A stretch of 64,000 nucleotides of DNA, from positions 1,426,001-1,490,000 of the forward strand of contig NZ_CP032762.1 in assembly GCF_003641205.1 (NCBI RefSeq). Direction: 5' to 3'. The position numbers and the translations under genes are program-made. The notes under the pieces are model-generated. The model had not been told where the DNA came from. It saw nothing but the letters and a program-made list of their open reading frames with translations, and ran no database searches. The stretch comes from Rhodococcus sp. P1Y (lineage in GTDB: Bacteria > Actinomycetota > Actinomycetes > Mycobacteriales > Mycobacteriaceae). Below, in pieces: positions 22,844 to 62,439 of the stretch (position 1 is its first letter; every line of letters starts with the position of its first letter).

Positions 22844-22851
22844 GGGAGTCG

Positions 22852-25704: not shown

Positions 25705-25815
25705 CGAAACTCCTTAGGCAGTCCTAATCCTGTGAGCATCACAAACCGATTCGGCGTCTACCGCAATAACCCCTCCAGAGCCTACTCTACGAATAGCGAC
25801 AAATTGAAGGAAAAA

Positions 25816-30004: not shown

Positions 30005-31166
30005 CGTCTCCTCCCGGCAGCTTTTCGTGGTGACATTCACCGGCGACTCCGGACTCACCGACTATGCAGTATCTTTCTGCCGCAAGTCTGGCTTGCGACG
30101 CGCTACAACGCTTGTGACGTCTTCCGCGATCGATCCTCAACTGGCGTCGGGACCCTTCGCAGTGTTGCAGTTGTTCAGGAGAAGTAGGCACTACCCGATC
30201 GACATTGTGAAATTCACGCGTCTGTGGTTCAGATACCGTCTTAGCTCAGACTTTATATTTCAGGGTCCGTTGAAGTTTCCGCTTTTAGAATCGCTTCTAG
30301 TCCGGTTCATGCGGCAGTTAGGCGCGCGATGTGCTGTTGTTGTTCACGATGTCGTGCCACATTATCGCCGTCCGTTCGGGCCGTTTATCTATAAAATCTA
30401 CTATCGATCCTTTAGTGCTCGCGTGTTCCATACAGGAAGTGCAAAATCGGCAATTGACGCGTCCAATTCGAAATTCGCCGAGAATAGCGTTGTTGTACCA
30501 CACGGGAACTATGACATTTTCAATACCAAGAGCCTCACACGCGAGACCGCCCGTGCAGTCTTAAACCTTCCGGCTGGGTCGAACCGTCTCGTGGTCTTGT
30601 CTTTCGGGAATATTGAAGATAGGAAGGGTATCCATGAGTTGCTGGACGCTCACGTAGAGCTGACTAACAGTGGTGTTGACCCAATCACTATTATTGCCGG
30701 GAAGCGCATGTTCGATAGCTCGTCCAGACTTGCAATAACGTTGAAAAGTGATCATCTCCCGGACGACGTGGTTTTGGCTGACTACCGTATTCCGTTTGAT
30801 CAGGTACAAAACTACTTTTCGGCGTGCGACGTTGTAGTGCTGCCATACCGGGAGGGGTCGACTAGCGGAGTGTTGAAACTTGCTATGGCTTTTGGAAAGC
30901 CTGTAGTCGCGGCACCGGTAGGCGATCTACGTTTCGAAGTGAACGGGGACCTTGGGATCCTCATGAAGGAGAATTGGGATGCGTCAGAGCTTGCGCAGTC
31001 GATTGCGACAATCAACGAGCGGCTGGGCACGTTCTCCGAACTGGTGAGGGTCGAGTCAGCGAAATATGGGTGGACGGAAATCGTTGACAAAGTTGTATCG
31101 CTACTTGACAGTGGAGTGGTAGGCGATAAGCCAGCAGATGGGGATGGCGCTAGTGCCACGCGTTAA
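29994..31166 (+). CDS. Glycosyltransferase family 4 protein
   Basis: A probable GT-B sugar transferase, 390 residues. The N-terminal half begins QLFVVTFTGDSGLTDYAVSF and contains CAVVVHDVVPHYRRPFGP. The C-terminal half has RLVVLSFGNIEDRKGIHELLDAH split over two elements, DVVLADYRIPFDQVQNYFSACDVVVLPY, and the donor segment YREGSTSGVLKLAMAFGKPV. The GTG at 29994 is preceded by GGGAG 5 bases away and overlaps the end of the polymerase gene by 11 bases. A longer in-frame reading from 29940 lies inside the polymerase gene and is not favoured. Confidence 0.86.
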   Translation: MSTDVSSRQLFVVTFTGDSGLTDYAVSFCRKSGLRRATTLVTSSAIDPQLASGPFAVLQLFRRSRHYPIDIVKFTRLWFRYRLSSDFIFQGPLKFPLLESLLVRFMRQLGARCAVVVHDVVPHYRRPFGPFIYKIYYRSFSARVFHTGSAKSAIDASNSKFAENSVVVPHGNYDIFNTKSLTRETARAVLNLPAGSNRLVVLSFGNIEDRKGIHELLDAHVELTNSGVDPITIIAGKRMFDSSSRLAITLKSDHLPDDVVLADYRIPFDQVQNYFSACDVVVLPYREGSTSGVLKLAMAFGKPVVAAPVGDLRFEVNGDLGILMKENWDASELAQSIATINERLGTFSELVRVESAKYGWTEIVDKVVSLLDSGVVGDKPADGDGASATR

Positions 31167-47147: not shown

Positions 47148-48923
47148 TCAGCACTGCGGAACGTCGACGGTGATGCTGGGGTCGTCGACGAGTGGTTGCT
47201 TCGGAACCACGGCCTCACCCGGCACCGAGGGCTCTTCGAGCTCCCACACGACCGTCGAGGACTCCCCGGGTGGAACGGTGAGGTACGCCGCCTGCACGGG
47301 ATGCCCCAGTTCGGTTCCACCCTGAACCGAGAACGCGCTGACGCCGTCGACCTTCGTCGACACGATTTTCGCGCCCTGCGTGCCGTAGAGATAGACGATC
47401 GACTCGTTGGTGCCGTAAGGGACGCCGGGCTGGAACGTACTCGCCACGTAGGAAGTGAGACCGTTCGGATCGACGTTGTTGGTCAACGTGGCGGTCACTG
47501 TCGACTTCCGCGTCGGGCCGGTGCATGATTCCGCGGTGTAGCTGATGTCGCGAGCAAGGTAGTAGTCGAGCTTGTTGCCGCCCGCATTGTTGACGACGAC
47601 GTTGGCGTACGGGGCGGGATCATCGGGCAACGTGTGGCCGATCTTGGTGCCGGACAGAACATCCTGCTCGGCGGGATCCGCACTCCAGATCTGAATGCGG
47701 CCCTCGCTGCCCGCGCGGCCCACGGCGTCGAGCAGCTTTCTGGTCGGTGCGACACCGGTGGTCATCTTGCCCACTACGGCCGCCGCGATCTCCTGTAGAT
47801 ACGCCTTGCGGGCGATCTGATCGTCACCGAAACGCGAGTACGCCGTCGACAACGTGACCTCGACGACGTTGTCGCCGGAGATGACCTCGCCGTCGGCCAA
47901 CGTGATGGGGCCCGTCGCGTCGAGGATGTAGCCGAGTGCGATGGGATCGGTGCCGATCGCCCCGTTCAACTGCTCGCCGGTCTGCTCGGCCCACATCGAC
48001 GACCAGATCTGACCTGCGTACGGAAAGTTCGGGCTCGCATTGGAATTGCGGAAATCAGTGGTGGTGTTTCGGGGACCCCACAGCGCGTTGTACTCGGGAC
48101 CCAGATCGATGGGTCGTTCGGCGAACTCGAGCTCGTTGTTGCTACCGAGTGTGTCGACGCGTGCGGTCCCGTCCTCTGCGCGCAGAATGCCGAAGCCGCC
48201 GAGCAGACCGCCGGTGCCGCGCGCCTCGGCGTTCGTCTGAAACGCCAGGAAGTACGAGCGCGGGCCGCTCGCGCCCATCATCGTCGGGACGAGCTTGCTT
48301 GCCGTATAGGTGTTGGTGAGCAAGCCGGCAAGATCGTGAGTCTGATTCTCCAACTGGACCCGTGCGTCCTGCACGACCCCGAGGTAGGCCGGATCCTCGA
48401 TGGCCTGTGCCCTGGCGTAGAGGTCTTCGGCAGCTGCCGACGTCGACGCGAGGACGGGTTCGGCGTCGATCAGGGCCTGGAGGTTCACCCGCCCACCACC
48501 TTCGACGATGCTGTCCGGTGAGATGCTCGCACTCGCATCCGATGCAGGCTCGAGCACATCGACCGCCAAGCCGTGGACCACGTCGGCGATCTCGGTGATC
48601 GTGGCGATGGGACTGCCGAGATACGGAACGGCGCCTGCGACGGTGAACGGAAGTGAGGACGCGGCATTTTGTGCCTTCGCGGCAGAATTCGACGCATCTG
48701 CGGCTGCCGCCTTCGCGCCCTGCACGTCGCCGTCGAGAAGCGCATCCTTGGCCGAATTGGCAGCAGTACGAGTCGCTTCGAGATTCGATTTGGCGCTGAC
48801 GGCCTCGTAGGCAAGCCACGCGACGAAGGCGACGACGATCAAAACCACAACTCCGACCCCGATGAGGACGGGCCGTTTCTTGCTCGTGCTCGATCTCGGT
48901 GCTGACTCGGTGCTGTGGGTCAT
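47148..48923 (-). CDS. DUF4012 domain envelope protein
   Basis: A 591-residue protein of the DUF4012 family, found near actinobacterial polysaccharide loci but without an assigned function. It has a short Ser/Lys-rich cytoplasmic start, one hydrophobic segment at about residues 18-40 (VLIGVGVVVLIVVAFVAWLAY), an Ala-rich coiled region (~45-90), and a large extracellular DUF4012 domain with YFLAFQTNAEARGTGGLLGGFG and FPYAGQIWSSMWAEQTGE. Near the C-terminus is a beta-rich part with YYLARDISYTAESC. The ATG at 48923 has GAGGAG about 10 bases upstream. It is transcribed away from the sugar transferase gene and may organise or anchor surface polymer. Confidence 0.88.
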   Translation of the reverse strand: MTHSTESAPRSSTSKKRPVLIGVGVVVLIVVAFVAWLAYEAVSAKSNLEATRTAANSAKDALLDGDVQGAKAAAADASNSAAKAQNAASSLPFTVAGAVPYLGSPIATITEIADVVHGLAVDVLEPASDASASISPDSIVEGGGRVNLQALIDAEPVLASTSAAAEDLYARAQAIEDPAYLGVVQDARVQLENQTHDLAGLLTNTYTASKLVPTMMGASGPRSYFLAFQTNAEARGTGGLLGGFGILRAEDGTARVDTLGSNNELEFAERPIDLGPEYNALWGPRNTTTDFRNSNASPNFPYAGQIWSSMWAEQTGEQLNGAIGTDPIALGYILDATGPITLADGEVISGDNVVEVTLSTAYSRFGDDQIARKAYLQEIAAAVVGKMTTGVAPTRKLLDAVGRAGSEGRIQIWSADPAEQDVLSGTKIGHTLPDDPAPYANVVVNNAGGNKLDYYLARDISYTAESCTGPTRKSTVTATLTNNVDPNGLTSYVASTFQPGVPYGTNESIVYLYGTQGAKIVSTKVDGVSAFSVQGGTELGHPVQAAYLTVPPGESSTVVWELEEPSVPGEAVVPKQPLVDDPSITVDVPQC

Positions 48924-49164
48924 CGTTCTTTTGCTCCTCGTGGCCTTCAGTTCGGATGACTGGTGCACCGGGAAGAGTAGTGCTTAGGCGACGAGAACGT
49001 GCGAGCGAGCTGAATGTCCTTCAGGCAAATAACACATTAACGAACTTCGCAAAGTGCAATGTGACGGAAATGACAGAGCGTTACTGAAATCGTAACGTAA
49101 TAGTGGTGCAATACGACGTCTGTTGTGTTGTTCAGAGGGCTCACGATCGAGCGCGAATGTTTCG

Positions 49165-49755
49165 ATGGAAGGGAAGCGGTTGGGCCAGGCGCCGAGCTCG
49201 AAGGGTCGAGACGGATTCGGCGAGGCTCGGCTGAAGCCGTGGGACGCCGCCGTCAAAGCTGTGTTCGACCGCGTCGTGGCGTCGGCGATGCTCCTACTGC
49301 TGACCCCGGTTCTGGTGACGTGCGCCCTCGTCGTCAAATGCGTGGACCCACGTAGCCCCGCGATCGACAGGTTGCCCAGGTTCGATCGGGAGGGCAGAGA
49401 ATTCGAACTGCACAACTTCCGCGTACCGACGTTGCCGCCGGTGAGGTGGGCTATCGAGCGCCTCGGCTTACGACACCTGCCCGAGCTCGTCAACGTGATG
49501 AGAGGCGAGATGAGCCTCGTCGGGCCACGCCCGCTAGCGGTGCAGTCGGCTCCGCTCGTCGGGTCGACCATTCGGCCGGGCATGACCGGGCTGTGGGTCC
49601 TGGAGCCGGCCGCCGAGCGCACGCCGCAGCAGATCGCCGAACTCACTCACTCGTACGCATCGTCATGGTCCCTCGCGACCGACATCGACATCTTGGTGAG
49701 GTCTGCCGGCGCGGTCCGATACGGGCCCAATTCGTCCTTGCGCGATCGGCATTGA
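49165..49755 (+). CDS. Sugar transferase-like protein lacking the catalytic Asp-Glu pair
   Basis: A 196-residue relative of the monotopic phosphoglycosyl transferases that start polysaccharide chains. It keeps a membrane helix (VVASAMLLLLTPVLVTCALVV), HNFRVP in place of KFRSM, LPELVNVMRGEMSLVGPRPL and RPGMTGLWVLEP, and the closing WSLATDIDILVRSAG. However, the catalytic pair found as Asp411-Glu412 in the protein at 22852 is Arg103-His104 here (49471-49476), and the usual Gln/Gly-rich loop before FR is shortened. It is probably not an active transferase. ATG 49165 has no good ribosome site. It is upstream of the NRPS gene and divergent from DUF4012. Confidence 0.8.
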   Translation: MEGKRLGQAPSSKGRDGFGEARLKPWDAAVKAVFDRVVASAMLLLLTPVLVTCALVVKCVDPRSPAIDRLPRFDREGREFELHNFRVPTLPPVRWAIERLGLRHLPELVNVMRGEMSLVGPRPLAVQSAPLVGSTIRPGMTGLWVLEPAAERTPQQIAELTHSYASSWSLATDIDILVRSAGAVRYGPNSSLRDRH

Positions 49756-49978: not shown

Positions 49979-52900
49979 GTGTCTGCAGTAGAAAGCGCAT
50001 CGACTGACGATGGCCGCTTTCCGCTGTCCGCAGCCCAACTGAACATCTACTTCGCCCAGAAGATCGCACCCGACGTTCCGTTCACCGTCGCGCAATACGT
50101 CGAGATTCGCGGGGAGATCGATCCCGCAGTACTGATCCGAGCGACGGACATCGCCTGCCGCGATCTCGAGTCACCCGGTGTCCGGCTCACCGAGGTCGAC
50201 GGTCGCCCATTGCAGTGGTTCGACACCAACGTTCCGTACGCGATGATCTACAAGGACCTGCGCCACCAGTCGGACCCAGTCGCGTACGCACAGCAGTACA
50301 TGGACGAGCACCACCGACAACCTGTCGATCTGGTTCACGATCAACTGATCGTTTCCGAGATCATCCAGGTCGGTGACGCACATTACTTCTGGTACAGCCG
50401 CGCTCATCACGTCGTCATGGACGGCCTCGGTGCCATCTCCGTGCAGGAACGCACTGCAGCCGCATACACGGCGCTAATTACCGACACTGACATCCCGAAG
50501 ACAAGGGCCGTCGGAGTACGCGAGATCTACGACTACGAGGCTTCCTACGTCGACTCCTCCCGCCAAGAGACGGACCGCCGGTATTGGCAGGGTCGACTCG
50601 AAGGCCACGCCGACGCACCTCGCTTGGCGCGGTCGTCCTCGCTTCCGAGTGGAGTATCGGTCAGCGTCGGAGCCGTGCTGGACAACGACATCGCCGACGC
50701 CATGGCCGACGTTGCCCGTCGGTACAACTCGTCCGACGTGCCCGTCGTGCTCGCGGCCTTCTCGTTGTACCTCGCTCGGATGACCGACACCGAAGACGTG
50801 ATGCTCAGCCTGCCCGTGTCCGGCCGAGCGACGACCAAGCTGCGCGACTCCTCGGGCATGATGTCCAACATCGTGCCCCTGCGCGTAGGAGTCGACGCCG
50901 ACATCACCGTCGAGGAGCTTCTCCGGCGGATTCAGGTCGAGCTCACCGGCGCCCTCCGGCATCAGCGCTTCCGCGTCGAGGACATGCAGCGTTCGGTGGG
51001 TGCGGGGTTGAGGGGAGACCTGGGGAGGCGGGAGCGCAGCCTGCGGAGTGACCTTGGTAGGCCGGGCGCTTTCGGTCCGACGGTGAATATCATGATGTAC
51101 GACAGCACGATTCGGCTCGGTGACGTCGTCGGCGAGTACCGCGTGCTCTCGAGCGGCCCGATCGACGACATGATGGTCAACGTGTACCCGGGTGTGGCTG
51201 GGTCCAGTACCCGCGTCGACTTCCTCGGCAATCCTGCGGTGTACACCACGGACGAGCTCGCGGTGCATCACGCGCGGTTCCTCGAGGTCCTCACATCGCT
51301 GGTTGCTGCACCGGATGGTTTGTTGCTCAGCAATATTCGACTGTCCTACGACGCAAACCTGGCGTACGTCGAGGACACTACGACTGTCGAGCCTGTGGTG
51401 CTGCCGACGCTTCTGTGCGGCGGTGTCACCCTGCACGCCCACGGCGTCGAACTCGGGCCTGCGGATTTCGTCGAACGCACGGAACACGTTGCGGCCCAGC
51501 TCATCGCGCTGGGCGCAGGTCAGGAAACGCGAGTAGCTTCGGCGCTCGAACGTTCTGAGCTGTCGGTGCTCGTCCTTGCTGCGATCGCGGCAGCGGGAGC
51601 GTCCTACGTTCCGATCGATCCGCGCGAACCTGCCCAGCGACTCGACGGGTTACTCGTCGATGCGGGCGTGTCCTTCGGGATCGCGTCGCGGGCGTCCATC
51701 GCCGAACTTCCCGGCGCTGTCGACTGGCTCGCGATCGAGGATCTGCTAGACGCCAACGACGGCGCCGATGCCCCCACCTACCGGGCGCCGCCCCAACACC
51801 TCGACAACGAAGCCTACGTCATCCACACCTCGGGATCGACGGGAAAACCGAAGGCTGTCAGCGTCACTCATCGTGGACTCGCACAGTTGGCTGCCACTGT
51901 GGTTGACCGATATCACGTGACGAGTTCGTCGCGCGTGCTCCATCTTGCGTCCCCGGTGTTCGACGCCTCCATTCAGGAGATTCTCGCCGCGTTCGCCGCG
52001 CGCGCGTCCCTCGTGGTGGCTCCCGCCGATGTCTACGCGGGTCGACCGCTGGCCGAGTTGACCACCCGCACCCGAATCACCCACCTGATCACGTCGCCGT
52101 CAGTTCTCGCGACGCTGCAGCCTGAGGACCTGCGCGGCGTCGAGGTGTTCGATGTCGGCGGTGAGGATTGCCCGCCGGCGCTGCGTGACCGGTTCGCCGA
52201 ATCCGGTGTCATGCTCAATGCTTACGGACCCACCGAGACCACTGTTCTCGCAACACTGTCCGATCCGATGACCGCCGGGGGCCGGATCACCATCGGCACC
52301 GCGCTGCCGGGGGTCCGCGCGCTCGTGCTCGATACTGCCCTACGACCCACCCCTCACGGTGGAACCGGCGAACTGTACCTCGGCGGCGAGGGCGTCGCCC
52401 GCGGATACGTGGGTCGACCCGGTCTGACTGCCGCGCGGTTCGTCGCCGATCCCGGTGCGCCGGGCCAACGGCTCTACCGCACCGGAGACATCGTCCGCTC
52501 AGCGGTGGACGGATCCGATCTCGAGTACGTCGGCAGGCGCGACGGCCAAATTCAGCTGCACGGTCGACGCCTCGAACTCGGCGAGGTCGAGGCGGTCGCC
52601 ACCACGTCGGCTGGCGTCACCGCTGCCGTCGCCGACGTACGAGACGACCGAATCACTCTCTACGTCACCGGCACCGATGTCGGCCTCGATTCGGTACTCC
52701 GCACTCGACTGCCCGGATGGATGGTGCCGCAGCGGATCGTGGTGCTCGACGCTCTGCCGCTGACGGCGAGCGGCAAGGTCGACCGCCGAGCGCTTCCGAG
52801 CCCGACCGCAGTCTCGTTGTCTGATTACGTTGCACCGCAGAGCGATACGGAGAAGGTGGTTGCCGGCGTCTTCGCCGACGTGCTCGGTGTTGCGGATGTG

Positions 52901-55900
52901 GGGCGCGATCACACGTTCTTCGAGCTGGGCGGAGACTCGCTCAGCGCGACTCGGGTGATCGCCCGGCTGGGTTCCGGATTGACGTTGCCCACGCTGTTCG
53001 ACACGCCGAGCGTGACAGCCGTCGCGGCAGCCCTCGATGCCGCCGTCGACCGGGAGGTATCGCTGGACTTGCTCGATACTGTTCTTCCCGAACGGGTTCC
53101 GTTGTCGTATTCCCAGCAGCGGCTGTGGTTCCTCAACCAGTTCGATTCGAGCTCGCCTGCCTACAACATGCCCGTCGGGATTCGGTTGGCACCCGGCACT
53201 GATGTGGCGCTCGTCGTCGCTGCACTGCGCGACGTGCTGGAACGGCACGAGTCGCTGCGAACCTACTTCCCGGACGACGGCGACGGCCCGCGTCAGGTGG
53301 TGTTGGCAACAAGCACTGTGCTCACCGACATCGCTGCGCGTCAGGTAGCAGCGGCGGACCTGAACGAGACGATCGAGAAGATCGCATCGACGGGATTCGA
53401 TGTTGCCCAGGGCCTTCCTCTTCGCGCCGAAGTGCTGGAGACCGCCGATTCTGTGGTAGCGGTGATCGTGTTGCACCACATAGCGGTCGACGGATGGTCC
53501 GTCGACCCGCTCGTGAAAGATTTCGCGGTCGCCCACGCCGCGCGCACCGCCGGGCATGCACCGACGTGGGGCCGTCTTCCCGCGCAGTACAGCCATTACG
53601 CCGTGTGGAACCGAGCCGTCGTCGATGCCGTCGCGGATGACCGACTGCGCTATTGGACTTCGGTGCTGGACGTCTCGGATGCGGGTGAGCACGACCTGCT
53701 CGCAGCGCTGCCCACCGATCGGCCCAGGCCTGCCGTGCAGTCGATGGTGATTGAAGGACTGCCGTTGGTCCTCGACGCGGACCTGGTGACACGACTCCAC
53801 CGCCGTGCCCAGTCGGCAGGCGCGACCACGTTCATGATCGTGCACGCCGCGCTCGCAGCAACGTTGAGCCGGTTCACCGGATCGACGCGAACCGTCATCG
53901 GCTCACCGACGGCTGGGCGGGGACACCCGGCGCTGGACGACATGGTGGGGATGTTCGTCGGCACCGTTCCGCTCGCCGTGACGGTCGACCCAGACGGGAG
54001 TGTCGACGATCTTGTCACCGCAGTGAGACGCGCCGACCTCGACGCGTTCGCGCATGCCGAGTTGCCGTTCGAACGAATCGTCGACGCAGTGGCCACCGAC
54101 CGTTCCCTCGACCGCCACCCGCTGTTCCAGGTGATGTTGGCCTTCGACAACGCTCACCACGAGTCGCTGGACGATCTACCGATCTCGTTGCATCCCATCG
54201 AGACTCGTACGTCGGAGTTCGACCTCAACGTGGTTCTCGCCGAATCGGAAGCAGGCATCTCAGGCCGTATCGAGTACGCCGTCGACCTGTACGACGAGCC
54301 CACCGTCGCCGAGTTCGCGTCGGTCTTTCTGACCGTCCTTCGAGCCGTCGTCACCGAACCGACCGCAATCGTCGGCGACCTGCAGTTGGCTGCGAGGAGC
54401 ACCGAGGCAGGTCCGGCACCGGTCGGAACCCTGCTCGACGTCCTGGCAACAGTTGGGACCGCGATCGACGGTGATACCCGGATCGAGTACGACGAGTTGG
54501 ACCGCCGGTCGAACAGGTTGGCGCGTTTACTGATTGCGCACGGTGTCGGCCCAGAATCCGTCGTTGCCCTGTCTCTGGAACGGTCGGCAGAGTACGTGCT
54601 TGCACTGTGGGCGATCGTGAAATCCGGCGCGGCGTTTGCCCCGATCGACCCTCACTATCCGGCTGCGCGGCGCGAGAAGATGCTCGACGGCATCGTGATC
54701 GGCGTCGGCGGTGACGAGACCGGAGTGACGTGGGTCGACGAATCCGAGGCGCTGATGCTCGCGGACGGCCCGATCGCAGACGGCGAGCGCACTGCGGCTC
54801 TGCGTCCCGACCACCCTGCATACGTCATCCATACCTCCGGATCTACCGGCACCCCCAAGCCGGTCACCGTGACCCACGCGAGCGTGTACGCGCTGGCCGG
54901 TCAGGTTGTTCCTCACTATGCTGTGACAGCGCAATCACGTGTGCTGCAGGGCTATTCGGTCAACTTCGACGCCGCGGTGCTGGAACTGGTGTTGGCGTTC
55001 GGTGCAGGTGCAACGCTGGTGATCGCGCCGCGCGACCTGGTCGACGGTGACGAAATCAGCCGATTCCTGACGTTGCACGGCGTCACGCACTACCTGTCGA
55101 CCCCCGCCGTGTTGGCGACGGTACCCGCCACTGCGGGGCTGACGACCGTTGCCGTCGGGGGTGATGTGCTCGGCTCCGACGTCGTTCGGCAATGGGCGCC
55201 CGGCCACCGAATGCTCAACGCGTACGGACCGACCGAGGCCACCGTCGTCGCTACGCTCACCGGACCGATGAAGGTCGACGGCACGGTCACCATCGGTAGA
55301 CCACTCGATTACGTCACTGCCCACGTGCTGGACCGCAGGCTGACGGCAGTTCCGGTAGGCGGCGTGGGCGAGCTGTACCTGGGAGGTGCCGGCCTTGCCC
55401 GCGGTTACGGAACACGCGCGGCGCTGACCGCCGAGCGCTTCGTCGCCGGCCGCGGCGGAACTCGGTTGTACCGCACCGGCGATCTCGTGCGTGTGGACCC
55501 CGCAGGCGAGCTTCAGCATCGCGGACGCATCGACTCCCAGGTGCAGTTGCGGGGCGTCCGCGTCGAACTGGGCGATATCGAGTCGACGTTGGCGTCGCAT
55601 CCTGACGTGCGAGGCGCGGTCGCAGCAGTGCGAGAGGACAGAATCCTCGCTTGGGTCGTCGGTATCGACGAGCTCGCGGCGAAACAGTGGCTGTTCGAGC
55701 GACTTCCGCTCGCCTTGGTACCCGCGACCGTGACCACGCTCGACCGTATTCCGTTGACCGGCAATGGAAAAGTGGACCTTGCCGCGCTGGAGACCCCAGT
55801 TCCGCCAGTTGTCGACGCCGCCGCAACGACATCGCTGTCCGAGGACGTCGTTCTCGGAATCTTCGCCGACAGCCTCGGAGTACTCGACCCTGCCGTCGAT

Positions 55901-58900
55901 GCGAACTTCTTTGCCCTGGGCGGGGATTCGCTGGCCGCGACGCGCGTCGCGAATCGCATCGGGGCAGCGCTCGGCACGCACGTCCCCGTACGGACGGTAT
56001 TCGAAGCACCGACCGCCCGACTGCTCGCGGCCGCCGTCGAGAAGGCGTCCGAGGACCACACTCCGCTTCCGGTGTTGGCACACCACCCGGATGCTCACGA
56101 TTTCGCTGGCCTCGCGCCCGCCGAACAACGGATCTGGTGGCAGAACCGGTACGACCCAAACTCTGCCGCGTACAACATCGCGTTCGAAGTGCAAGTGCCA
56201 CCGGAGGTTGACCTCGGTGTTCTGCGCGAGGCCGTCGGAGATGTACTGCGTCGGCACCTACCGCTGCGCACGGTGTATCCAGGAACTCCGGACGGTCCGA
56301 CGACGACCGTTCTCGAGCCCGACGTGGTTCTCTCGTCGCTCGACGAGCGTCACGCCGACGCCCAGGCATTGGCGACCGACGGATTCGATCTCACGGTCGA
56401 GCCTCCCGTCCGGTTTGCGGTGACCCATGACTCCGGCACGGCAAAGCTGACGGTCGCGGCCCACCACATCGCCGTCGACGGACTGTCCCTCGCCCCGCTC
56501 GCCCGCGACGTCGAGACGGCGTTGAGGGCGCGCATCGCAGGTACCGTTCCCCAATTCGATCCCCTTGCAGTCGATTACGCGGACTACCGGCGATGGCAGC
56601 GGGACGTACTGAGCGCGGTGTCGGACCGTCAACTCGACCACTGGCGTCGCACGCTCGCGTCGATGCCCGGCTACCTCGACCTGCCCACCGGCAATCCGGA
56701 TCCGAACGCCGACGCCGAACCGATCGAATTCGGACTCGACTCCGACACTCTCGACGAACTCCGCACTCTCGCACACAGACTCGGGGCGACAGTGTTCGTG
56801 CTGGTCCACGCGGCACTGGCGGTGGTTCTGGCAGAAGCATCGGGAACCACCGACATTGCCGTCGGGACACCGGTGTCGGGGCGCTCGGACCCGCAACTCG
56901 ACGCGCTCGTCGGAATGTTCGTCGGGACGGTCGTGCTGCGCACCGAGGTGGACCCGTCGAAGACGTTCGAGCAGTTCGTACTCGACGTGCGAGAAGTGGA
57001 CCTCGACGCGTTCGGCAATGCGGACGTGCCGTTCGAACGGGTTGTGGACGCGGTGAGCCCGACGCGGTCCGTCGACGTTCACCCTCTGTTCCAGGTGCTG
57101 CTCGCCTTCGGTGACCTGCACGCTCCCGCATTCGCGTTCGGCTCCGAGACGGCGACTCCGCGTCGAATCGACGTCGCCTCCACTCAGTTCGATCTCGAAT
57201 TCGTCGTCGAGGAGACCGCCGACGGCCTCGCCGGACGATTGACCTACTCGGCGGCGAGATTCGCGAGGTCGGTGACCGAGAACCTGGCGACGCGCCTGCT
57301 GGCGGTGCTGACATCCGTCGCCGCGCAGCCAGGGATCGAACTGGGGAGCGCGCAGTTCCGGGGTCGCGGCAGCACCATCGACATGGTGCACGCCGACGAG
57401 GCACCGGAGAGTTACTCGTTGGGGGCTGTGTTCGCCGGCGCGGCCGAGAAGTGGTCCGATCGCATTGCGGTGGTGGACGGCGATGTGGCACTGACCTACC
57501 GCGAGCTCGACGAGCGTTCGAACATGCTGGCTCATGCACTTGTCGGTGCTGGAGTAGCTCCGGGGGATCTGGTGGCCGTCGTGCTGCCACGGTCGATCGA
57601 GTTCGACATCGCCGTGTGGGCAGTTGCGAAAGTCGGGGCGGCCTACCTTCCGATCGATCCGCAGCAGCCGGCTGCACGCATCGACGAGGTGCTGGTTCAG
57701 GCACTTCCGGTGATCGGAATTTCCGGACCGAACTTCGACGCGGACGCCCGGTGGCTGAAAGTCACCGACGAACGCCGGTCCGAGTTCGATGCTCGCGAAG
57801 TACCGATCGACGCAGCTGCCTACGTCGTCTACACCTCGGGATCGACCGGTACTCCAAAGGGAGTGCGGGTGACTCAGCGTGGAATCGCCGATCTGGTGCA
57901 GAGTCAACGTGACCTGTTCGGGGTTCGTCCGGATTCTCGCGTGCTGCGGTTCGCATCGCCGAGCTTCGATGCCGCCGTGTTCGAGATGCTGCTGGCGGTC
58001 GGAGCGGGCGCGGCGAGCGTCATCGTTGCCCCTGGCGTGTACGGCGGCCGAGAACTCGAAGCTCTCGTCGAGCAGCACGAGGTGACCCATGCCTGCCTGA
58101 CGCCGACGGTACTGCAGGTGACCGACGCGAAGGCGATGCCGACGCTCGCCGTCGTCGTCATCGCAGGTGAAGCCGTCAACTCCGAACTTCTGCACCGGTG
58201 GTCGCATGGTCGCTCGGTGTTCAACGCGTACGGACCGACCGAGGCCACCGTGATGAGCACGTGCACGCCGTCGTGGCCAGAGCCGTTGCTACGCAATGAA
58301 ACCAACTTGCCCGACGTCACGATCGGTGGCCCGACGCGAGGATTCGACGCCGTGGTACTCGACGCTCGGCTGCGCCCGGTCGGAGACAGCGTGGTGGGTG
58401 AGCTCTATCTGGGCGGTAGGGGTCTCGCGGAGGGGTACATCGGCCAGGCAGGTGCGACGTCGAGTTCGTTCGTGGCCGACCCGTTCGTACCGGGTCGACG
58501 GCTCTATCGCACAGGGGATCTGGCGCGGTGGACACCGTTCGGCGGACACCGCCAGCTCGAGTACGTCGGTCGCGTCGACTCTCAGGTGAAGATCCGAGGA
58601 CACCGAGTCGAACTCTTCGAGGTGGAGGCAGCTGTGCTGCGGCATCCGAATGTGGAGCAGGCAAGCGTCGTCGGTCGGGGTGACGCGCTCGCGGCGTATG
58701 TCGTCGGATCGGCCGGCCCGCGGGATGTGCGTGCATTCGTAGCCGAAGCCGTGCCAGGGTTCATGGTTCCGAACACGGTGACCGTCGTCGATTCGCTGCC
58801 GACGACGCTTTCCGGCAAAGTGGATGTGCGTCGACTTCCGGAACCGACTGCTGTCCCCGGCGGCATTGTGCTCCCGACAACGGCACTGGAGTTCCTCGTG

Positions 58901-59860
58901 CGGACGGTGTTCGCCGACGTGCTGGAGATGCCGGAGGACCACATAGGCATCGAAGACAACTTCTTCGACCTCGGCGGGCATTCGCTGCAGGTCGTCCGGG
59001 TGATGGATTCGCTGGCCGATCGACTGGGACAGCAGATTCCGGTGACTGCCATGTTCGTACGCCCCACGGTGGCCGGTTTGGCCAGGCACGTCGAGTCCGA
59101 CACCGCGAGCGGTAGCAGTGGTGTGTTCGACGTGCTTCTGCCGCTTCGCGCCGAGGGCATCGGAATGCCGCTGTTCTGCATCCATCCCGCCGTCGGCATC
59201 GCGTGGAGTTACCTCTCGCTCCTCGCCGAGACCGACCGGCCCGTCTACGGACTGCAGGTTCCCGGAATCGCTGACGGAGATGCCATTCCGTCGACGATCG
59301 ACGGTTTCGCGACGCGGTACGTCCGCGAGATTCGCAGCGTGCAGCAGGAGGGCCCGTACCATCTGCTCGGCTGGTCACTCGGTGGTGTGATCGCCCACGC
59401 TGTTGCCGCTCGGCTGCAAGAAGACGGCGAGGATGTCGCTCTTCTGGCACTCGTCGACGCTCGATTGACCGCACCGGACGACGCGGAGGAATTCGGTGTC
59501 GAGGACCTTGCGTCGCAGCTCGGGGTTCAGGGCTCATCGTTCGACGGCATCGCCGCCGAGTTGCACCGCACCCGTAGCGAACTGTCCTTCGTCACCGCCG
59601 ACCATCTGCGGCGGGTGTATCGGCCGGTGACATCTGCAGCCGGTTGGGTTGCAGCGCATAGAGTTCCCGTGTTCAAGGGTGATGTGGACTACCTCGCGTC
59701 GCGGAACTCGAGGGGCGCGGACCAATGGAAAGACTTCGTCGGGGGTGTCGTCTCGGTACACCGAGTGGACGCCGATCACGAACACATGCTGGGTGAAGCA
59801 GGCGCCCGCGCGATAGGTCGGGTACTCGGTACCCCTTCGGTGACGGAAGGTGTGGCGTGA
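49979..59860 (+). CDS. Trimodular non-ribosomal peptide synthetase (C-A-T, C-A-T, C-A-T-TE)
   Basis: A 3293-residue assembly line expected to link three residues and release them. C1 (about 10-445, HHVVMDG near 142) resembles the first domain of EntF and so probably accepts a starter from another carrier protein or an acyl group. A1 has HTSGSTGKPK near 616, NAYGPTE near 748 and GKVD near 930; its first core motif is degenerate. T1 is GGDS near 984. C2 has HHIAVDG near 1165, A2 TSGSTG near 1618, T2 GGDS near 1981, C3 HHIAVDG near 2161, A3 TSGSTG near 2618 and T3 GGHS near 2999. TE has GWSLGG near 3130. No epimerase or methyltransferase domain is seen. Hand alignment gives pocket residues D-A-Q-I-F-V-A-V-L (A1), D-A-L-L-V-V-A-V-V (A2) and D-A-F-C-V-A-A-V-M (A3), all hydrophobic; the substrates are not assigned. 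Confidence 0.95.
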   Translation: MSAVESASTDDGRFPLSAAQLNIYFAQKIAPDVPFTVAQYVEIRGEIDPAVLIRATDIACRDLESPGVRLTEVDGRPLQWFDTNVPYAMIYKDLRHQSDPVAYAQQYMDEHHRQPVDLVHDQLIVSEIIQVGDAHYFWYSRAHHVVMDGLGAISVQERTAAAYTALITDTDIPKTRAVGVREIYDYEASYVDSSRQETDRRYWQGRLEGHADAPRLARSSSLPSGVSVSVGAVLDNDIADAMADVARRYNSSDVPVVLAAFSLYLARMTDTEDVMLSLPVSGRATTKLRDSSGMMSNIVPLRVGVDADITVEELLRRIQVELTGALRHQRFRVEDMQRSVGAGLRGDLGRRERSLRSDLGRPGAFGPTVNIMMYDSTIRLGDVVGEYRVLSSGPIDDMMVNVYPGVAGSSTRVDFLGNPAVYTTDELAVHHARFLEVLTSLVAAPDGLLLSNIRLSYDANLAYVEDTTTVEPVVLPTLLCGGVTLHAHGVELGPADFVERTEHVAAQLIALGAGQETRVASALERSELSVLVLAAIAAAGASYVPIDPREPAQRLDGLLVDAGVSFGIASRASIAELPGAVDWLAIEDLLDANDGADAPTYRAPPQHLDNEAYVIHTSGSTGKPKAVSVTHRGLAQLAATVVDRYHVTSSSRVLHLASPVFDASIQEILAAFAARASLVVAPADVYAGRPLAELTTRTRITHLITSPSVLATLQPEDLRGVEVFDVGGEDCPPALRDRFAESGVMLNAYGPTETTVLATLSDPMTAGGRITIGTALPGVRALVLDTALRPTPHGGTGELYLGGEGVARGYVGRPGLTAARFVADPGAPGQRLYRTGDIVRSAVDGSDLEYVGRRDGQIQLHGRRLELGEVEAVATTSAGVTAAVADVRDDRITLYVTGTDVGLDSVLRTRLPGWMVPQRIVVLDALPLTASGKVDRRALPSPTAVSLSDYVAPQSDTEKVVAGVFADVLGVADVGRDHTFFELGGDSLSATRVIARLGSGLTLPTLFDTPSVTAVAAALDAAVDREVSLDLLDTVLPERVPLSYSQQRLWFLNQFDSSSPAYNMPVGIRLAPGTDVALVVAALRDVLERHESLRTYFPDDGDGPRQVVLATSTVLTDIAARQVAAADLNETIEKIASTGFDVAQGLPLRAEVLETADSVVAVIVLHHIAVDGWSVDPLVKDFAVAHAARTAGHAPTWGRLPAQYSHYAVWNRAVVDAVADDRLRYWTSVLDVSDAGEHDLLAALPTDRPRPAVQSMVIEGLPLVLDADLVTRLHRRAQSAGATTFMIVHAALAATLSRFTGSTRTVIGSPTAGRGHPALDDMVGMFVGTVPLAVTVDPDGSVDDLVTAVRRADLDAFAHAELPFERIVDAVATDRSLDRHPLFQVMLAFDNAHHESLDDLPISLHPIETRTSEFDLNVVLAESEAGISGRIEYAVDLYDEPTVAEFASVFLTVLRAVVTEPTAIVGDLQLAARSTEAGPAPVGTLLDVLATVGTAIDGDTRIEYDELDRRSNRLARLLIAHGVGPESVVALSLERSAEYVLALWAIVKSGAAFAPIDPHYPAARREKMLDGIVIGVGGDETGVTWVDESEALMLADGPIADGERTAALRPDHPAYVIHTSGSTGTPKPVTVTHASVYALAGQVVPHYAVTAQSRVLQGYSVNFDAAVLELVLAFGAGATLVIAPRDLVDGDEISRFLTLHGVTHYLSTPAVLATVPATAGLTTVAVGGDVLGSDVVRQWAPGHRMLNAYGPTEATVVATLTGPMKVDGTVTIGRPLDYVTAHVLDRRLTAVPVGGVGELYLGGAGLARGYGTRAALTAERFVAGRGGTRLYRTGDLVRVDPAGELQHRGRIDSQVQLRGVRVELGDIESTLASHPDVRGAVAAVREDRILAWVVGIDELAAKQWLFERLPLALVPATVTTLDRIPLTGNGKVDLAALETPVPPVVDAAATTSLSEDVVLGIFADSLGVLDPAVDANFFALGGDSLAATRVANRIGAALGTHVPVRTVFEAPTARLLAAAVEKASEDHTPLPVLAHHPDAHDFAGLAPAEQRIWWQNRYDPNSAAYNIAFEVQVPPEVDLGVLREAVGDVLRRHLPLRTVYPGTPDGPTTTVLEPDVVLSSLDERHADAQALATDGFDLTVEPPVRFAVTHDSGTAKLTVAAHHIAVDGLSLAPLARDVETALRARIAGTVPQFDPLAVDYADYRRWQRDVLSAVSDRQLDHWRRTLASMPGYLDLPTGNPDPNADAEPIEFGLDSDTLDELRTLAHRLGATVFVLVHAALAVVLAEASGTTDIAVGTPVSGRSDPQLDALVGMFVGTVVLRTEVDPSKTFEQFVLDVREVDLDAFGNADVPFERVVDAVSPTRSVDVHPLFQVLLAFGDLHAPAFAFGSETATPRRIDVASTQFDLEFVVEETADGLAGRLTYSAARFARSVTENLATRLLAVLTSVAAQPGIELGSAQFRGRGSTIDMVHADEAPESYSLGAVFAGAAEKWSDRIAVVDGDVALTYRELDERSNMLAHALVGAGVAPGDLVAVVLPRSIEFDIAVWAVAKVGAAYLPIDPQQPAARIDEVLVQALPVIGISGPNFDADARWLKVTDERRSEFDAREVPIDAAAYVVYTSGSTGTPKGVRVTQRGIADLVQSQRDLFGVRPDSRVLRFASPSFDAAVFEMLLAVGAGAASVIVAPGVYGGRELEALVEQHEVTHACLTPTVLQVTDAKAMPTLAVVVIAGEAVNSELLHRWSHGRSVFNAYGPTEATVMSTCTPSWPEPLLRNETNLPDVTIGGPTRGFDAVVLDARLRPVGDSVVGELYLGGRGLAEGYIGQAGATSSSFVADPFVPGRRLYRTGDLARWTPFGGHRQLEYVGRVDSQVKIRGHRVELFEVEAAVLRHPNVEQASVVGRGDALAAYVVGSAGPRDVRAFVAEAVPGFMVPNTVTVVDSLPTTLSGKVDVRRLPEPTAVPGGIVLPTTALEFLVRTVFADVLEMPEDHIGIEDNFFDLGGHSLQVVRVMDSLADRLGQQIPVTAMFVRPTVAGLARHVESDTASGSSGVFDVLLPLRAEGIGMPLFCIHPAVGIAWSYLSLLAETDRPVYGLQVPGIADGDAIPSTIDGFATRYVREIRSVQQEGPYHLLGWSLGGVIAHAVAARLQEDGEDVALLALVDARLTAPDDAEEFGVEDLASQLGVQGSSFDGIAAELHRTRSELSFVTADHLRRVYRPVTSAAGWVAAHRVPVFKGDVDYLASRNSRGADQWKDFVGGVVSVHRVDADHEHMLGEAGARAIGRVLGTPSVTEGVA

Positions 59861-60750
59861 TGAATCAGCAGGGCGCGACTACCAGGAGACTGGAACCGTA
59901 CGTCGACAACGTGCGAGCTCACTACGATCTGTCGGACGAGTTCTTCGAACTGTTCCTCGACGACAGCATGACTTACAGCTGCGCCTACTTCGAGCGTGAG
60001 AACATGACGCTCGAAGAGGCCCAAACCGCGAAGATCGATCTCGCACTCGGCAAGCTGGATCTGCAGCCGGGTATGAGGCTGCTCGACATCGGTTGCGGCT
60101 GGGGCGCTCTGGCCAAGCGAGCGGTGGAGCAGTACGGCGTCGACGTCGTCGGCCTGACCTTGAGCCGCAATCAGTACGAACACGCGAGTGATGTCGTCCG
60201 AGACCTACCCGGCGCGGAGATCCGACTGCAGGGCTGGGAGGAATTCGACGAGCCCGTCGATCGGATCGTCAGCATCGGTGCGTTCGAACATTTCCGGCGC
60301 CAGCGTTACGCGGCGTTCTTCGACAGGTGCCGCGCTGTTCTCCCGTCGGACGGCCGAATGTTGTTGCACACGATCGTCATGCGGCCCATCGCCGAGGTCC
60401 TCGCACGCGGAGTCGTCTTCACTCGCGAAGACGCGCACTTCGTGCGGTTCATCATGCGGGAGATCTTCCCGGGCGGACAGCTGGCTCAGTCGGACATGGT
60501 GGTGTCCAGAGCGTCCGAGGCCGGGTTCGGGCTCACGCGTGAGCATGCTCTCGGTCCGCACTACGCGCGAACCCTGGACGAATGGACCGATCGCCTGGTG
60601 GCCTCGCGCGATCAGGCGATTGCATTGTCCAGCAAAGAAATCTACGACCGCTACATCCGTTACCTCACAGGATGTTCGGCACGTTTCAAAGACGGTCGCA
60701 TCGACGTCGTGCAGTTCACTTTGTATCCGAAGTCTCCGTCACCACGTTGA
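59860..60750 (+). CDS. Cyclopropane mycolic acid synthase-like SAM methyltransferase
   Basis: A 296-residue enzyme of the CmaA/PcaA/MmaA family, which adds a methylene or methyl group to double bonds of long acyl chains using S-adenosylmethionine. The whole family pattern is present: VRAHYDLSDEFFELFLDDSMTYSCAYFE split by the turn, MTLEEAQTAKIDLALGKL, the SAM motif LLDIGCGWGALAKRAV, VVGLTLSRNQYEH, VSIGAFEHF, LHTIVM, and FIMREIFPGGQL. It shares one base with the NRPS stop (TGATG), so the two are co-translated; a GTG at 59857 is an alternative start. The coupling suggests that it modifies the lipid part of the peptide product or its starter, rather than bulk mycolate. Confidence 0.93.
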   Translation: MNQQGATTRRLEPYVDNVRAHYDLSDEFFELFLDDSMTYSCAYFERENMTLEEAQTAKIDLALGKLDLQPGMRLLDIGCGWGALAKRAVEQYGVDVVGLTLSRNQYEHASDVVRDLPGAEIRLQGWEEFDEPVDRIVSIGAFEHFRRQRYAAFFDRCRAVLPSDGRMLLHTIVMRPIAEVLARGVVFTREDAHFVRFIMREIFPGGQLAQSDMVVSRASEAGFGLTREHALGPHYARTLDEWTDRLVASRDQAIALSSKEIYDRYIRYLTGCSARFKDGRIDVVQFTLYPKSPSPR

Positions 60751-60819
60751 ACAGCAGCATGTGCCCCAGGCACGACACCATCTAGTACTCGCTGTGCGAA
60801 TAGAAATTAGGGAGCCCAA

Positions 60820-62439
60820 GTGGAAATCCAGGACTACCTCCGAATCCTGAGAACGCGGTGGATGATCATCGTGGTCACCGTCGCGGTCGCAGTTCTGGGC
60901 GCGCTGGCGGTCTCGCTGCTCACGACGCCGACCTACCAGTCGTGCAGTCGGGTGTTCGTCTCCACGTCCGGTGGGTCGACGGTGAGCGAGAGTTACCAGG
61001 GCAACCTGTTCTCGCAGCAGCGCGTTGCGTCGTACTCCGAATTGGTGACGGGCGAGACGCTCGCGTCGCGGACGATCGACGAGTTGGGCTTGTCCATGAC
61101 GCCCGCACAGCTGGCGGCCAAAGTCACTGCCACCTCGACCCCCGACACCGTTCTCCTCGACATCTGCGTCGTGGACACAGCTCCCGAGACAGCTCGTAAC
61201 GTCGCGAATTCGCTCGCCTCGCAGCTGACCACGCTCGTACGGGAACTCGAAACCCCCGAAGACGGCGGATCGGCCGCTGCCGGAGTTCGTTCGGTGGAGC
61301 AGGCACAGGCGTCGTCGAGCCCGATCAGTCCCAAGACGACCCGCAATCTGGCCCTGGGCGCGGCAGTCGGGCTACTGCTCGGAATCGCGCTCGCAGTACT
61401 GCGCGACCGTCTCGACAACACCATCAAGACGCGCTCTCGCCTCGAAGCCGCCGCGAAGACTTCCCTCGTCGGAACGATCCCGTTCGACAAGGATCTGAAG
61501 GAGACCTCCGTGGTGTCGTTCGGTGCCGCGAGGTCGTCGAGCGCAGAAGCGTTCCGTGAGTTGCGCACCAACTTGCAGTTCCTCGAGGTCGACCATCCGC
61601 CGCGCGTCATCGTCGTCACGAGCGCCGTGCCGACCGAGGGCAAAACCACCGTCGCGGTCAACCTGGCCCTCGCGCTCGCCGAGGCCGGCCATCACGTCGC
61701 GCTCGTCGAAGGCGATCTACGACGCCCACGCGTGTCGAAGTACCTGAATCTGATCGGGTCGGTCGGGCTCTCGACGGTACTGGCCGGTCAGGCTGAACTG
61801 TCCGACGTGCTCCAGCCGAGTAGCTACGAGGGACTCGAGGTTCTCGCGTCGGGTCCGCTGCCGCCCAACCCGTCGGAACTGCTCGGATCCGAAGCCTCAC
61901 GTCGTGTGATCGAGGAACTGCGTGGTCGATTCGATTACGTCATCCTCGACGGCGCGCCCTTGCTCCCGGTGACCGACTCCGCGCTGCTGACCACGCACAG
62001 TGACGGCGCACTCGTCGTCGCACGATTCGGCCACACCAGCGAGAGCGAGGTGACGAGGGCGGTGGAGAACCTGGAGAAGATCGGCGCACACATCCTCGGT
62101 GCCGTGTTCACGATGATGCCGCAGGGCCGTAAGGGTGGGGAGAACTACTCGTACTACTACGAGACGGACAAGTCGATTCCGCACCAGGTGCCGAACCCGG
62201 TGACCCCAGGATCGGTCGCCACCCAGTGGGACAGCAAGCCGGCAGAACCACCTGCGTCGCCGTCGCCCACTGCGTACGACAACCGGCCCCCCGCAGTGCC
62301 GTCGGCGCCGGAGACCACCGAGAGCGTTCGTTCGACGGCCCGGCCCTCGGGTCCGGCGATCACTCCGACCTCGACACCCGGGTCCGGAGCGGCTCCGCAG
62401 AACGGTGTGACTCCGCCATCGCGAAGGTACAAGGACTGA
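60820..62439 (+). CDS. Wzz/BY-kinase polysaccharide co-polymerase, intact
   Basis: A 539-residue membrane tyrosine autokinase controlling polysaccharide chain length. The Wzz part starts EIQDYLRILRTRW with helix 1 (residues ~15-35), and helix 2 lies near 175-195 (LALGAAVGLLLGIALAVLRDRL). The P-loop kinase domain has Walker A SAVPTEGKTT with Lys275, Walker A' VALVEGDLRRP and Walker B YVILDGAP. The C-terminus has a Tyr cluster (Tyr443 and Tyr445-447) and then a Pro/Ser-rich tail of about 90 residues. An AGGGAG element precedes the GTG. It resembles the protein at 8870 along its length (YQGNLFS, GPLPPNPSELL) but with the active residues in place. It is 69 bases after the methyltransferase gene. 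Confidence 0.94.
   Translation: MEIQDYLRILRTRWMIIVVTVAVAVLGALAVSLLTTPTYQSCSRVFVSTSGGSTVSESYQGNLFSQQRVASYSELVTGETLASRTIDELGLSMTPAQLAAKVTATSTPDTVLLDICVVDTAPETARNVANSLASQLTTLVRELETPEDGGSAAAGVRSVEQAQASSSPISPKTTRNLALGAAVGLLLGIALAVLRDRLDNTIKTRSRLEAAAKTSLVGTIPFDKDLKETSVVSFGAARSSSAEAFRELRTNLQFLEVDHPPRVIVVTSAVPTEGKTTVAVNLALALAEAGHHVALVEGDLRRPRVSKYLNLIGSVGLSTVLAGQAELSDVLQPSSYEGLEVLASGPLPPNPSELLGSEASRRVIEELRGRFDYVILDGAPLLPVTDSALLTTHSDGALVVARFGHTSESEVTRAVENLEKIGAHILGAVFTMMPQGRKGGENYSYYYETDKSIPHQVPNPVTPGSVATQWDSKPAEPPASPSPTAYDNRPPAVPSAPETTESVRSTARPSGPAITPTSTPGSGAAPQNGVTPPSRRYKD

Follow-up and report, generated by a model that had tools for sequence, protein, structure and literature searches.

The whole stretch of DNA that we analyzed, hereafter the window, is 64 kb long and contains an NRPS gene followed on the same strand by genes for a CmaA-type transferase (CMAS) and a Wzz/BY-kinase. 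A DUF4012 gene runs divergently from the NRPS, and an exopolysaccharide (EPS) locus lies farther upstream. The features are as follows:

20926..33931, + strand: EPS locus (Pfam)
47148..48968, - strand: DUF4012 protein (PF13196, E=8.3e-44), divergent from the NRPS
49123..49755, + strand: small Bac_transf sugar-phosphate transferase, catalytic part only (PF02397, E=1.2e-26)
49979..59860, + strand: NRPS, 3,293 aa, C(starter)-A-T-C-A-T-C-A-T-TE (ORF and Pfam)
50018..51316, + strand: C1, starter-type condensation domain, HHVVMDG, Ala at the acyl-length gate (nearest solved chains)
53093..54394, + strand: C2, ordinary elongation-type condensation domain (best solved chains 5u89, 7kvw, Txo1/Txo2)
56090..57420, + strand: C3 region (query range used), ordinary elongation-type condensation domain (nearest chains as for C2)
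59168..59797, + strand: C-terminal thioesterase, motif GWSLGG (PF00975, E=8.6e-27)
59857..60750, + strand: CMAS, CmaA-type S-adenosylmethionine-dependent cyclopropane/methyl transferase (PF02353, NF040660; 1kp9, E=3e-105)
60820..62439, + strand: Wzz/BY-kinase polysaccharide co-polymerase with a Tyr-rich stretch, YSYYYET (ORF, Pfam, TIGR01007)

By Pfam, the EPS locus encodes a UDP-glucose dehydrogenase, an initiating sugar transferase, glycosyltransferases, an FrhB-like protein, a pyruvyl transferase, and a polysaccharide flippase-type protein. The first-pass annotation of this DNA left the DUF4012 gene and the small sugar transferase unnamed. It described a trimodular NRPS joined by a stop/start overlap to a CmaA-type methyltransferase, with a complete co-polymerase 69 bases farther on, and this arrangement was borne out: Pfam identified three Condensation, three AMP-binding, and three PP-binding domains and one Thioesterase domain in the NRPS, and the ORFs and Pfam confirmed the 69-base gap between CMAS and kinase. 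The NRPS starts at the GTG at 49979, immediately 3' of GGAGGGGG, and stops at the TGA at 59858-59860. CMAS starts at the GTG at 59857 or the ATG at 59860, giving an overlap of 4 or 1 bases, rather than a fusion.

A check for a terminator or RNA structure between CMAS and the kinase gave an unremarkable fold (z=0.66), Rfam gave no match anywhere in the window, and a scan covering sigma-70-type sites found no promoter upstream of the NRPS. The reported absence of an MbtH-like gene held for the window, since a regular expression for its signature matched in none of the six frames. None of the proteins assigned next to the NRPS was recognized as an exporter.

Our genus set comprised 37 genomes, apparently of Rhodococcoides (the R. 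fascians group), of which 25 bear this NRPS and 12 lack it. At 19 of the 22 NRPS-CMAS junctions, the NRPS was read to a stop of its own; 18 of these overlap (the window included) and 1 has a single base between the genes, which argues that the overlap is not due to chance. For the junction at L027, which had no anchor in the junction script, an overlap is given by the gene calls of L059. The remaining two junctions read through, with a single frame spanning both genes in L041 (G032) and L048 (G011). We considered these as proof of coupling by a clean fusion and rejected them because of frame changes, which lie in the last TE codons of L041 and put the TE itself out of frame in L048; sequencing error is possible in both.

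We typed C1 by its similarity to solved chains, taking C2 and C3 for contrast. The chains closest to C1 were, in order, RzmA-Cs (7c1k, E=9.6e-53), ObiF1, CDA-C1, and EntF, and the similarity to RzmA-Cs extends across the whole domain; in contrast, the chains nearest to C2 and C3 were elongation domains. C1 had at first been likened to EntF, with an acyl group as one possible start. EntF is indeed among the best chains, but RzmA-Cs, ObiF1, and CDA rank ahead of it, and an acyl starter appears likely given that C1 is closest to the starter domain RzmA-Cs. The residue that aligns to R148 of RzmA, the acyl-length gate, is Ala in the window, as it is in 25 of the 26 C1 domains read in the genus (Ser in the other). 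In a published series, shortening the gate side chain to Ala or Gly took acyl acceptance from C2 up to C8 or C10, and HolA, with Ala at the gate, takes a C8 chain (Zhong et al. 2021, PMC7804268). As judged from this one series, the gate of C1 would be compatible with a medium or long acyl chain. The window NRPS resembles RzmA and HolA (rhizomide and holrhizin; PMC7804268) in the sequence of C1 and, like HolA, in its small gate residue. The modules differ, and the RzmA and HolA hosts belong to a different phylum from the organism of the window.

Complete downstream modules and a TE follow C1 (Pfam and motifs). At positions following GrsA numbering, each of the 26 aligned NRPSs, which extend to as little as ∼50% identity, carries the adenylation codes DAQTDGAV[LV], DALSAGA[VI][VL], and DAFL[VI]AA[VI]M, and thus the tripeptide should be the same across these NRPSs. 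The codes matched no specificity that the analysis could name.

Our best explanation, which we hold with moderate confidence, is that this locus makes, together with EPS, an N-acyl tripeptide bearing an unsaturated acyl chain that undergoes cyclopropanation or methylation. The starter C domain of the NRPS would acylate the first amino acid with a chain of medium or long length, the two ordinary modules would add two further L-amino acids, and the thioesterase would release the N-acylated tripeptide. With no acyl ligase adjoining the NRPS, the donor of this chain would probably be an acyl-CoA or acyl-ACP, and CMAS may add a methylene or methyl group to a C=C bond of the chain prior to or following loading. 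Because the NRPS gene lies between the DUF4012 gene and the chain-length kinase of EPS synthesis, the lipopeptide would be made alongside EPS, with the cell surface or matrix as its most likely site. The earlier suggestion of a modified acyl chain fits this reading; NRPS and CMAS form a coupled unit, and an acyl starter is likely. The domain order, the starter type of C1, the near-invariant adenylation codes, the CMAS catalytic-site residues, the conservation of gene order, and the excess change in C1 without CMAS were computed; we infer which acyl substrate is used, what reaction CMAS carries out, that the lipopeptide is released free, and that it has a surface role.

CMAS lies directly behind this NRPS in 21 of the 37 genus genomes. 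By hand count, 11 of the 25 NRPS-bearing genomes have the order NRPS-CMAS-kinase, and another 4 have the kinase after the NRPS but no CMAS; in the remaining 10, CMAS follows the NRPS and the kinase lies apart from them, within ∼6 kb of DUF4012. Thus, the three-gene unit of the first-pass annotation stands for the coupling of NRPS and CMAS, but the three-gene order is not fixed. The kinase, which combines a Wzz domain (PF02706) with a P-loop domain (PF13614) and passes TIGR01007 (168 bits; cut-off, 108), with a GNVR match marginally below its cut-off (26.2 versus 27.7 bits), is present in all 37 genomes. Because these include all 12 NRPS-less genomes (58 to 90% identity), the kinase belongs to EPS synthesis first and is not specific to the NRPS. 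The initiating EPS sugar transferase is found in 36 of the 37 genomes, and the main EPS sugar transferase lies 11 to 42 kb from the NRPS in the 15 of the 25 NRPS-bearing genomes that have both on one contig.

The DUF4012 gene is the most constant partner of this NRPS: DUF4012 proteins of at least 66% identity occur in exactly the 25 genus genomes that carry it. The protein has a hydrophobic N-terminal segment, as read off the sequence, and its predicted structure, of middling confidence (mean pLDDT, 72.4; pTM, 0.63), had no Foldseek match in the PDB at E<=0.001. Divergent pairs of DUF4012 and a starter-type NRPS occur in at least four genera. In three of these, the kinase lies directly behind the NRPS in most genomes examined, and the NRPSs have 3 to ∼8 modules, as estimated from frame length. 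Judged from gene content and order, the locus is built in two layers, an old one of DUF4012 and NRPS, mostly with the kinase, and a young one of CMAS.

A possible, though considerably less probable, alternative is that the product is a free secreted surfactant or signal lipopeptide and that the EPS locus is merely where its genes lie, with no functional tie. NRPSs with a starter C domain are frequent in Rhodococcus, where 69 of 79 cluster families are described as lipopeptide-like (PMC5550956), and G010 and G018, two genomes without the NRPS, retain the kinase with the small sugar transferase directly upstream of it, which indicates that EPS synthesis needs no NRPS. In genus g23, 5 of 20 resolvable genomes have the kinase far away from the NRPS, and at E<=1e-100 no separate kinase accompanies any of the eight second DUF4012-NRPS copies. 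However, the NRPS-kinase neighborhood recurs in three genera, with touching frames in genus g27 (L148, L150, and L153), and DUF4012 is paired with the NRPS at 31 of 32 places in g23.

It is unlikely that CMAS was captured beside the NRPS as an ordinary cyclopropane synthase for mycolates or phospholipids and does not act on the NRPS product. Such a role would agree with its best solved relatives, the mycolate enzymes CmaA1, MmaA2, and UmaA, which it matches over the full length, and with its scores against the family models (PF02353, E=1.7e-106; the mycolic-methyltransferase model NF040660, 416.7 bits; cut-off, 390). It is also the single match in its own genome at E<=1e-60. Of the 12 NRPS-less genus genomes, 6 have relatives at 58 to 60% identity, and other genera have relatives at 58 to 63%; none of those looked at lies beside this NRPS type, and thus CMAS could act on other lipids. 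The residues C, E, H, I, and Y, which we take to be the bicarbonate-site (catalytic-site) residues at CmaA1 positions, are retained in all 22 CMAS orthologues; they are not specific to NRPS-linked enzymes, being found in 18 of 20 other family members read (the other two, both from one genome, read SEQMY). In contrast to CmaA1, MmaA2, and UmaA, CMAS is coupled to an NRPS: each of the 22 CMAS genes at or above 66% identity lies directly behind one, which in one case is a fragment where the contig ends. Stop and start overlap at nearly every junction, and the 12 NRPS-less genus genomes have no CMAS gene of that identity. The CMAS reaction requires a C=C bond, and its substrate is probably the acyl chain of the NRPS.

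Change in C1 where CMAS is missing also argues against a captured enzyme. The CMAS-less pair L099/L100 is nested among CMAS carriers and has 23 changes in C1, versus 8 in its three CMAS-bearing sisters, compared with 86 versus 198 in the other domains (Fisher p=3e-6). A second lineage was compared at sites that do not vary in the other CMAS carriers; there, the CMAS-less L102/L103 changed at a mean of 72.5 sites in C1, versus 31 in the CMAS-bearing L059, compared with 145.5 versus 138 in the other domains (p=0.001). It is important to note that these are two contrasts only and that Fisher tests take related sequences as independent. In the second contrast, C2 (44.5 versus 49.8%) and TE (52.3 versus 57.1%) are also somewhat less conserved in the CMAS-less pair, and A2 is more conserved. 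Synonymous change is normal in L099, where replacement of C1 by recombination is unlikely, but is higher in the N half of C1 in L100, which could reflect recombination. The disproportionate change of C1 in both CMAS-less lineages ties CMAS to the acyl chain.

A more elaborate role, which we regard as doubtful, is that DUF4012, NRPS, and BY-kinase form a surface decoration system, in which the lipopeptide would be joined to or anchor the growing EPS outside the membrane with the help of DUF4012, the module number (3 to ∼8) would vary the decoration by lineage, and CMAS would tune the lipid anchor in Rhodococcoides. Aryl-starter NRPSs such as EntF and ObiF1, which take dihydroxybenzoate, also have starter-like C domains. 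Although both rank among the chains that C1 matches best, a siderophore of catechol or hydroxamate type with an EntF-like aryl start is very improbable, as the full NRPS scored 991.9 bits against the EntF model (cut-off, 2400, not passed), no siderophore gene set (aryl-activating, transporter, or reductase genes) was found among the six proteins assigned around the NRPS in 47148-62439, the C1 gate is a small Ala, and CMAS needs its C=C bond.

The lipopeptide that we favor would be akin to those of the Rhodococcus starter-C NRPSs (Ceniceros et al. 2017, PMC5550956), which share the N-terminal starter C domain and a predicted lipopeptide product. The words "polysaccharide" and "cyclopropane" do not occur in the main text of that paper, and, unlike those NRPSs, the one here is tied to DUF4012, to an EPS kinase, and, in this genus, to CMAS. 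The kinase resembles Wzc-type BY-kinases in its fusion of Wzz to a P-loop kinase and its Tyr-rich tail but differs in its place directly behind an NRPS. A DUF4012 gene also lies between the priming transferase and wzz in the Bifidobacterium longum EPS locus (PMC5412050), whereas here one DUF4012 subtype stands head-to-head with an NRPS. A 2025 survey of Rhodococcus EPS reported that, among the strains it covered, no polysaccharide genes were linked to biosynthetic gene clusters (PMC12298843); in a strain named there, R. ruber IEGM 1391 (L096), this NRPS lies ∼23 kb from an EPS sugar transferase.

If NRPS products decorate polysaccharides, this would link two classes of surface molecules, a link that we have not found in print. 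Many rhodococcal NRPS clusters are without a known product, and this one has a testable site of action, the EPS or capsule. With a constant DUF4012 partner and natural relatives that lack CMAS, the product, its lipid tailoring, and its role in the capsule can each be tested. Strains sp. BP22 and sp. 1168 naturally lack CMAS, and sp. 1163 and sp. H36-A4 are close strains that bear it. Beside their surface-polysaccharide genes, Rhodococcus-type bacteria carry a conserved assembly line that probably produces a small fatty peptide, whose tail is probably reshaped in this branch by the added CMAS.

The first-pass annotation had placed a nonribosomal peptide synthetase (NRPS), a cyclopropane/methyl transferase (CMAS), and a BY-kinase in one operon, with a lipopeptide or a peptide joined to envelope polysaccharide as a possible product. 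The arrangement is real and is one late version of a wider conserved neighbourhood. The genes concerned lie in a 5.87-Mb single-contig genome, of which the window covers positions 1426001 to 1490000:

20926-33931, exopolysaccharide (EPS) locus
47148-48968, minus strand, DUF4012 gene upstream of the NRPS
49123-49755, plus strand, Bac_transf sugar transferase (210 aa) upstream of the NRPS
49979-59860, plus strand, NRPS (3293 aa), C-A-T-C-A-T-C-A-T-TE
start overlapped by the NRPS stop, CMAS, CmaA-type methyltransferase (297 aa)
beginning 69 bases after the CMAS, Wzz/BY-kinase (539 aa)

Also interleaved with the EPS locus are a Tox-REase-7 (PF15649) polymorphic-toxin-like ORF with its neighbours (in the window and at L114, L115, and L116) and a small protein without a Pfam match followed by an Abhydrolase_8 (PF06259) protein. 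These ORF sets span window positions 41263-42720, 42722-43366, 44109-46889, and 62862-64000. The NRPS-less genome G010 has relatives of both 44109-46889 and the Abhydrolase_8 protein, and G018 has relatives of the latter. The window also contains another kinase of the Wzz/P-loop type, shorter and 49% identical, with two secretory-lipase-type ORFs after it (8870-10189, 10186-11442, and 12726-13931).

We examined 37 genomes of the genus, including the window's own. The NRPS was present in 25, and a DUF4012 gene of the window's type (66 to 84% identity, its own apart) was found in exactly the same 25; the 12 NRPS-less genomes carried only a DUF4012 relative of 45 to 50%. The first condensation domain (C1) scored at least 875 bits in 23 of the 25 and near 500 bits in G006 and G007, whose NRPSs are ∼50% identical to that of the window. 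An alignment scan of named genomes with C1 gave 23 loci, 21 of them in Rhodococcus/Rhodococcoides at 62 to 79% identity (including R. fascians A44A, R. fascians NBRC 12155, R. yunnanensis, and R. trifolii); the others were in R. kyotonense (48%) and, weakly, in a Legionella MAG (24%). A CMAS of at least 66% identity was found in 21 genomes, all NRPS-bearing, and numbered 22 genes because G011 has two. All 22 come after an NRPS, which in G030 is a fragment at a contig end. CMAS relatives of 58 to 60% occur in 6 of the 12 NRPS-less genomes. Two NRPS copies are present in G011 (L048/L104), where the TE of one is out of frame, and in G030 (L046/L101), where one is truncated and lacks a CMAS.

The kinase was found in all 37 genomes, the main EPS sugar transferase in all but one (36). 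Of the 25 NRPS genomes, 15 have this transferase and the NRPS on a single contig, separated by 11 to 42 kb (best matches). By hand count, as for these distances, the three-gene order of the annotated operon holds in 11 of the 25 NRPS genomes, but in 4 (G006, G007, G020, and G029) the kinase lies directly 3' of the NRPS, with no CMAS elsewhere in the genome at an E value of ≤1e-60. In the other 10, NRPS and CMAS adjoin and the kinase lies across the DUF4012 gene, within about 6 kb of it.

The DUF4012-NRPS pairing extends beyond the genus. We compared 125 DUF4012 places with 150 C1-type NRPS starts among the matches listed, scoring the best four candidates per genome. At least 59 of the 125 places had an NRPS start within 1 kb, all 59 divergent, and nine more pairs, all in this genus, were 1.03 to 1.19 kb apart; in eight of them the gene calls place the small sugar transferase between the two. 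The other 57 places, unpaired among the matches listed, comprised 18 in this genus (a second DUF4012 type, 45 to 53%), 3 in genus g23, 5 in g27, and 31 elsewhere; on inspection, an NRPS adjoins DUF4012 at five of these 57 (L139, L140, and L158 to L160) and not at L141 or L161. Across 28 g23 genomes, an NRPS start stands beside 31 of 32 DUF4012 places (the exception being G261:C6), and the pair was present in 3/3 regions fetched from g9 and 0/1 from g29.

The kinase is often part of this arrangement. Among 21 g23 genomes with a first DUF4012-NRPS pair, G289 was left out as broken by a contig end; coordinates resolved the remaining 20, and in 15 of them the kinase directly follows the NRPS (positions calculated by hand from the frame lengths, with L107 seen directly). 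The exceptions are G115, G128, G151, G181, and G261; for four of these, the sequence beyond the NRPS was retrieved. Eight second DUF4012-NRPS copies in g23 had no kinase of their own at an E value of ≤1e-100. In g27, the kinase directly follows the NRPS in 10 of 11 fetched regions, the frames touching in three. Wherever the kinase directly follows the NRPS, a CMAS could not fit between them. The g27 genomes have a longer relative of this block (L144 to L153), in which the NRPS beside DUF4012 is mostly ∼6,200 to 6,360 aa and precedes a BY-kinase. Around DUF4012, eight g23 loci (L106, L124, L126, L129, L130, L135, L137, and L139) and one in g9 (L159) carry UDP-glucose dehydrogenase or pyruvyl-transferase relatives, so the EPS link crosses genera too.

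Two genomes with neither the NRPS nor the window-type DUF4012, G010 and G018, have the small sugar transferase and then the kinase directly; by BLAST, homology to the window begins 29 bases before the kinase start. Because the NRPS-kinase neighbourhood also occurs outside the genus, this empty site looks like a loss. It also shows that the kinase is a gene of the EPS locus rather than one tied solely to the NRPS.

The best solved chains for C1 were the RzmA starter C domain (7c1k and relatives), ObiF1, CDA-C1, and EntF; for C2 and C3 they were 5u89, 7kvw-type PCP-C chains, and Txo1/Txo2, which we take to be elongation domains. The five residues of the CMAS that we take to be its catalytic site (C42, E144, H171, I173, and Y236) align to C35, E140, H167, I169, and Y232 of CmaA1 and are kept in 22/22 orthologues. 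Of 20 further family members read, 18 share all five, and two, both of the same genome, have SEQMY instead. Judged from this alignment, the enzyme has the site of an active family member, but the site alone does not point to an NRPS substrate. The window's own genome has, at ∼3.11 Mb, tandem CFA-synthase-like genes (L003 and L004) with S, E, Q, M, and Y replacing C, E, H, I, and Y. Adenylation codes were near-invariant across 26 aligned NRPSs. According to Zhong et al. (PMC7804268), acyl length is determined by one C-domain residue: R148 in RzmA (C2), M165 in CDA (C6), and A149 in HolA (C8). The window C1 has Ala at the position aligned to RzmA R148, as do 25/26 C1 domains of the genus (Ser in 1/26); Gly occurs in g23.

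No domain is better conserved between CMAS-bearing genomes than C1 (81.7% versus 67.6 to 70.9% for the others; 190 pairs). Its rate of change was compared with CMAS presence in two contrasts only. In the first, L102/L103, which lack a CMAS, group with the CMAS-bearing L059 (support 1.0, unrooted tree), and C1 identity to other CMAS carriers is 54.6% for L102/L103 versus 67.5% for L059. A1, A3, and C3 are equal (55, 55, and 52%); L102/L103 have lower values for C2 and TE (44.5 versus 49.8% and 52.3 versus 57.1%) and a higher one for A2 (61.6 versus 56.0%). In the second, L099/L100 represent a younger CMAS loss, placed by the tree inside a clade of carriers. Here 23 C1 sites changed on the L099/L100 side only, all within the first 247 residues, versus 8 within three CMAS-bearing sisters, the counts for other domains being 86 versus 198 (Fisher P = 3e-6 for the C1 excess, relatedness ignored). 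A1 deviates the opposite way (P = 0.008, relatedness ignored), and none of the remaining five domains deviates. In the changed half of C1, synonymous change in L099 is normal (22 to 31 versus 21 to 33 among sisters) and nonsynonymous change is raised (16 to 20 versus 4 to 7); in L100, synonymous change is raised too (45 to 51). We read the C1 change in CMAS-less lineages as a sign that the CMAS alters the acyl donor that C1 handles.

We found no paper joining a Rhodococcus NRPS to exopolysaccharide and cyclopropane or to tyrosine kinase and exopolysaccharide, and none joining NRPS, capsular polysaccharide, lipopeptide, and cyclopropane fatty acid synthase. The gene order is absent from the available parts of PMC7504157, PMC5550956, PMC11433410, PMC5412050, PMC12298843, PMC2947987, and PMC7804268; the literature searched was mostly outside subscription journals. 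The neighbourhood is real, conserved, and made of known parts, and is undescribed within that literature. The NRPS product is likely a lipopeptide, the two rate contrasts support a link between the CMAS and its acyl chain, and a functional tie of the block to EPS is plausible.
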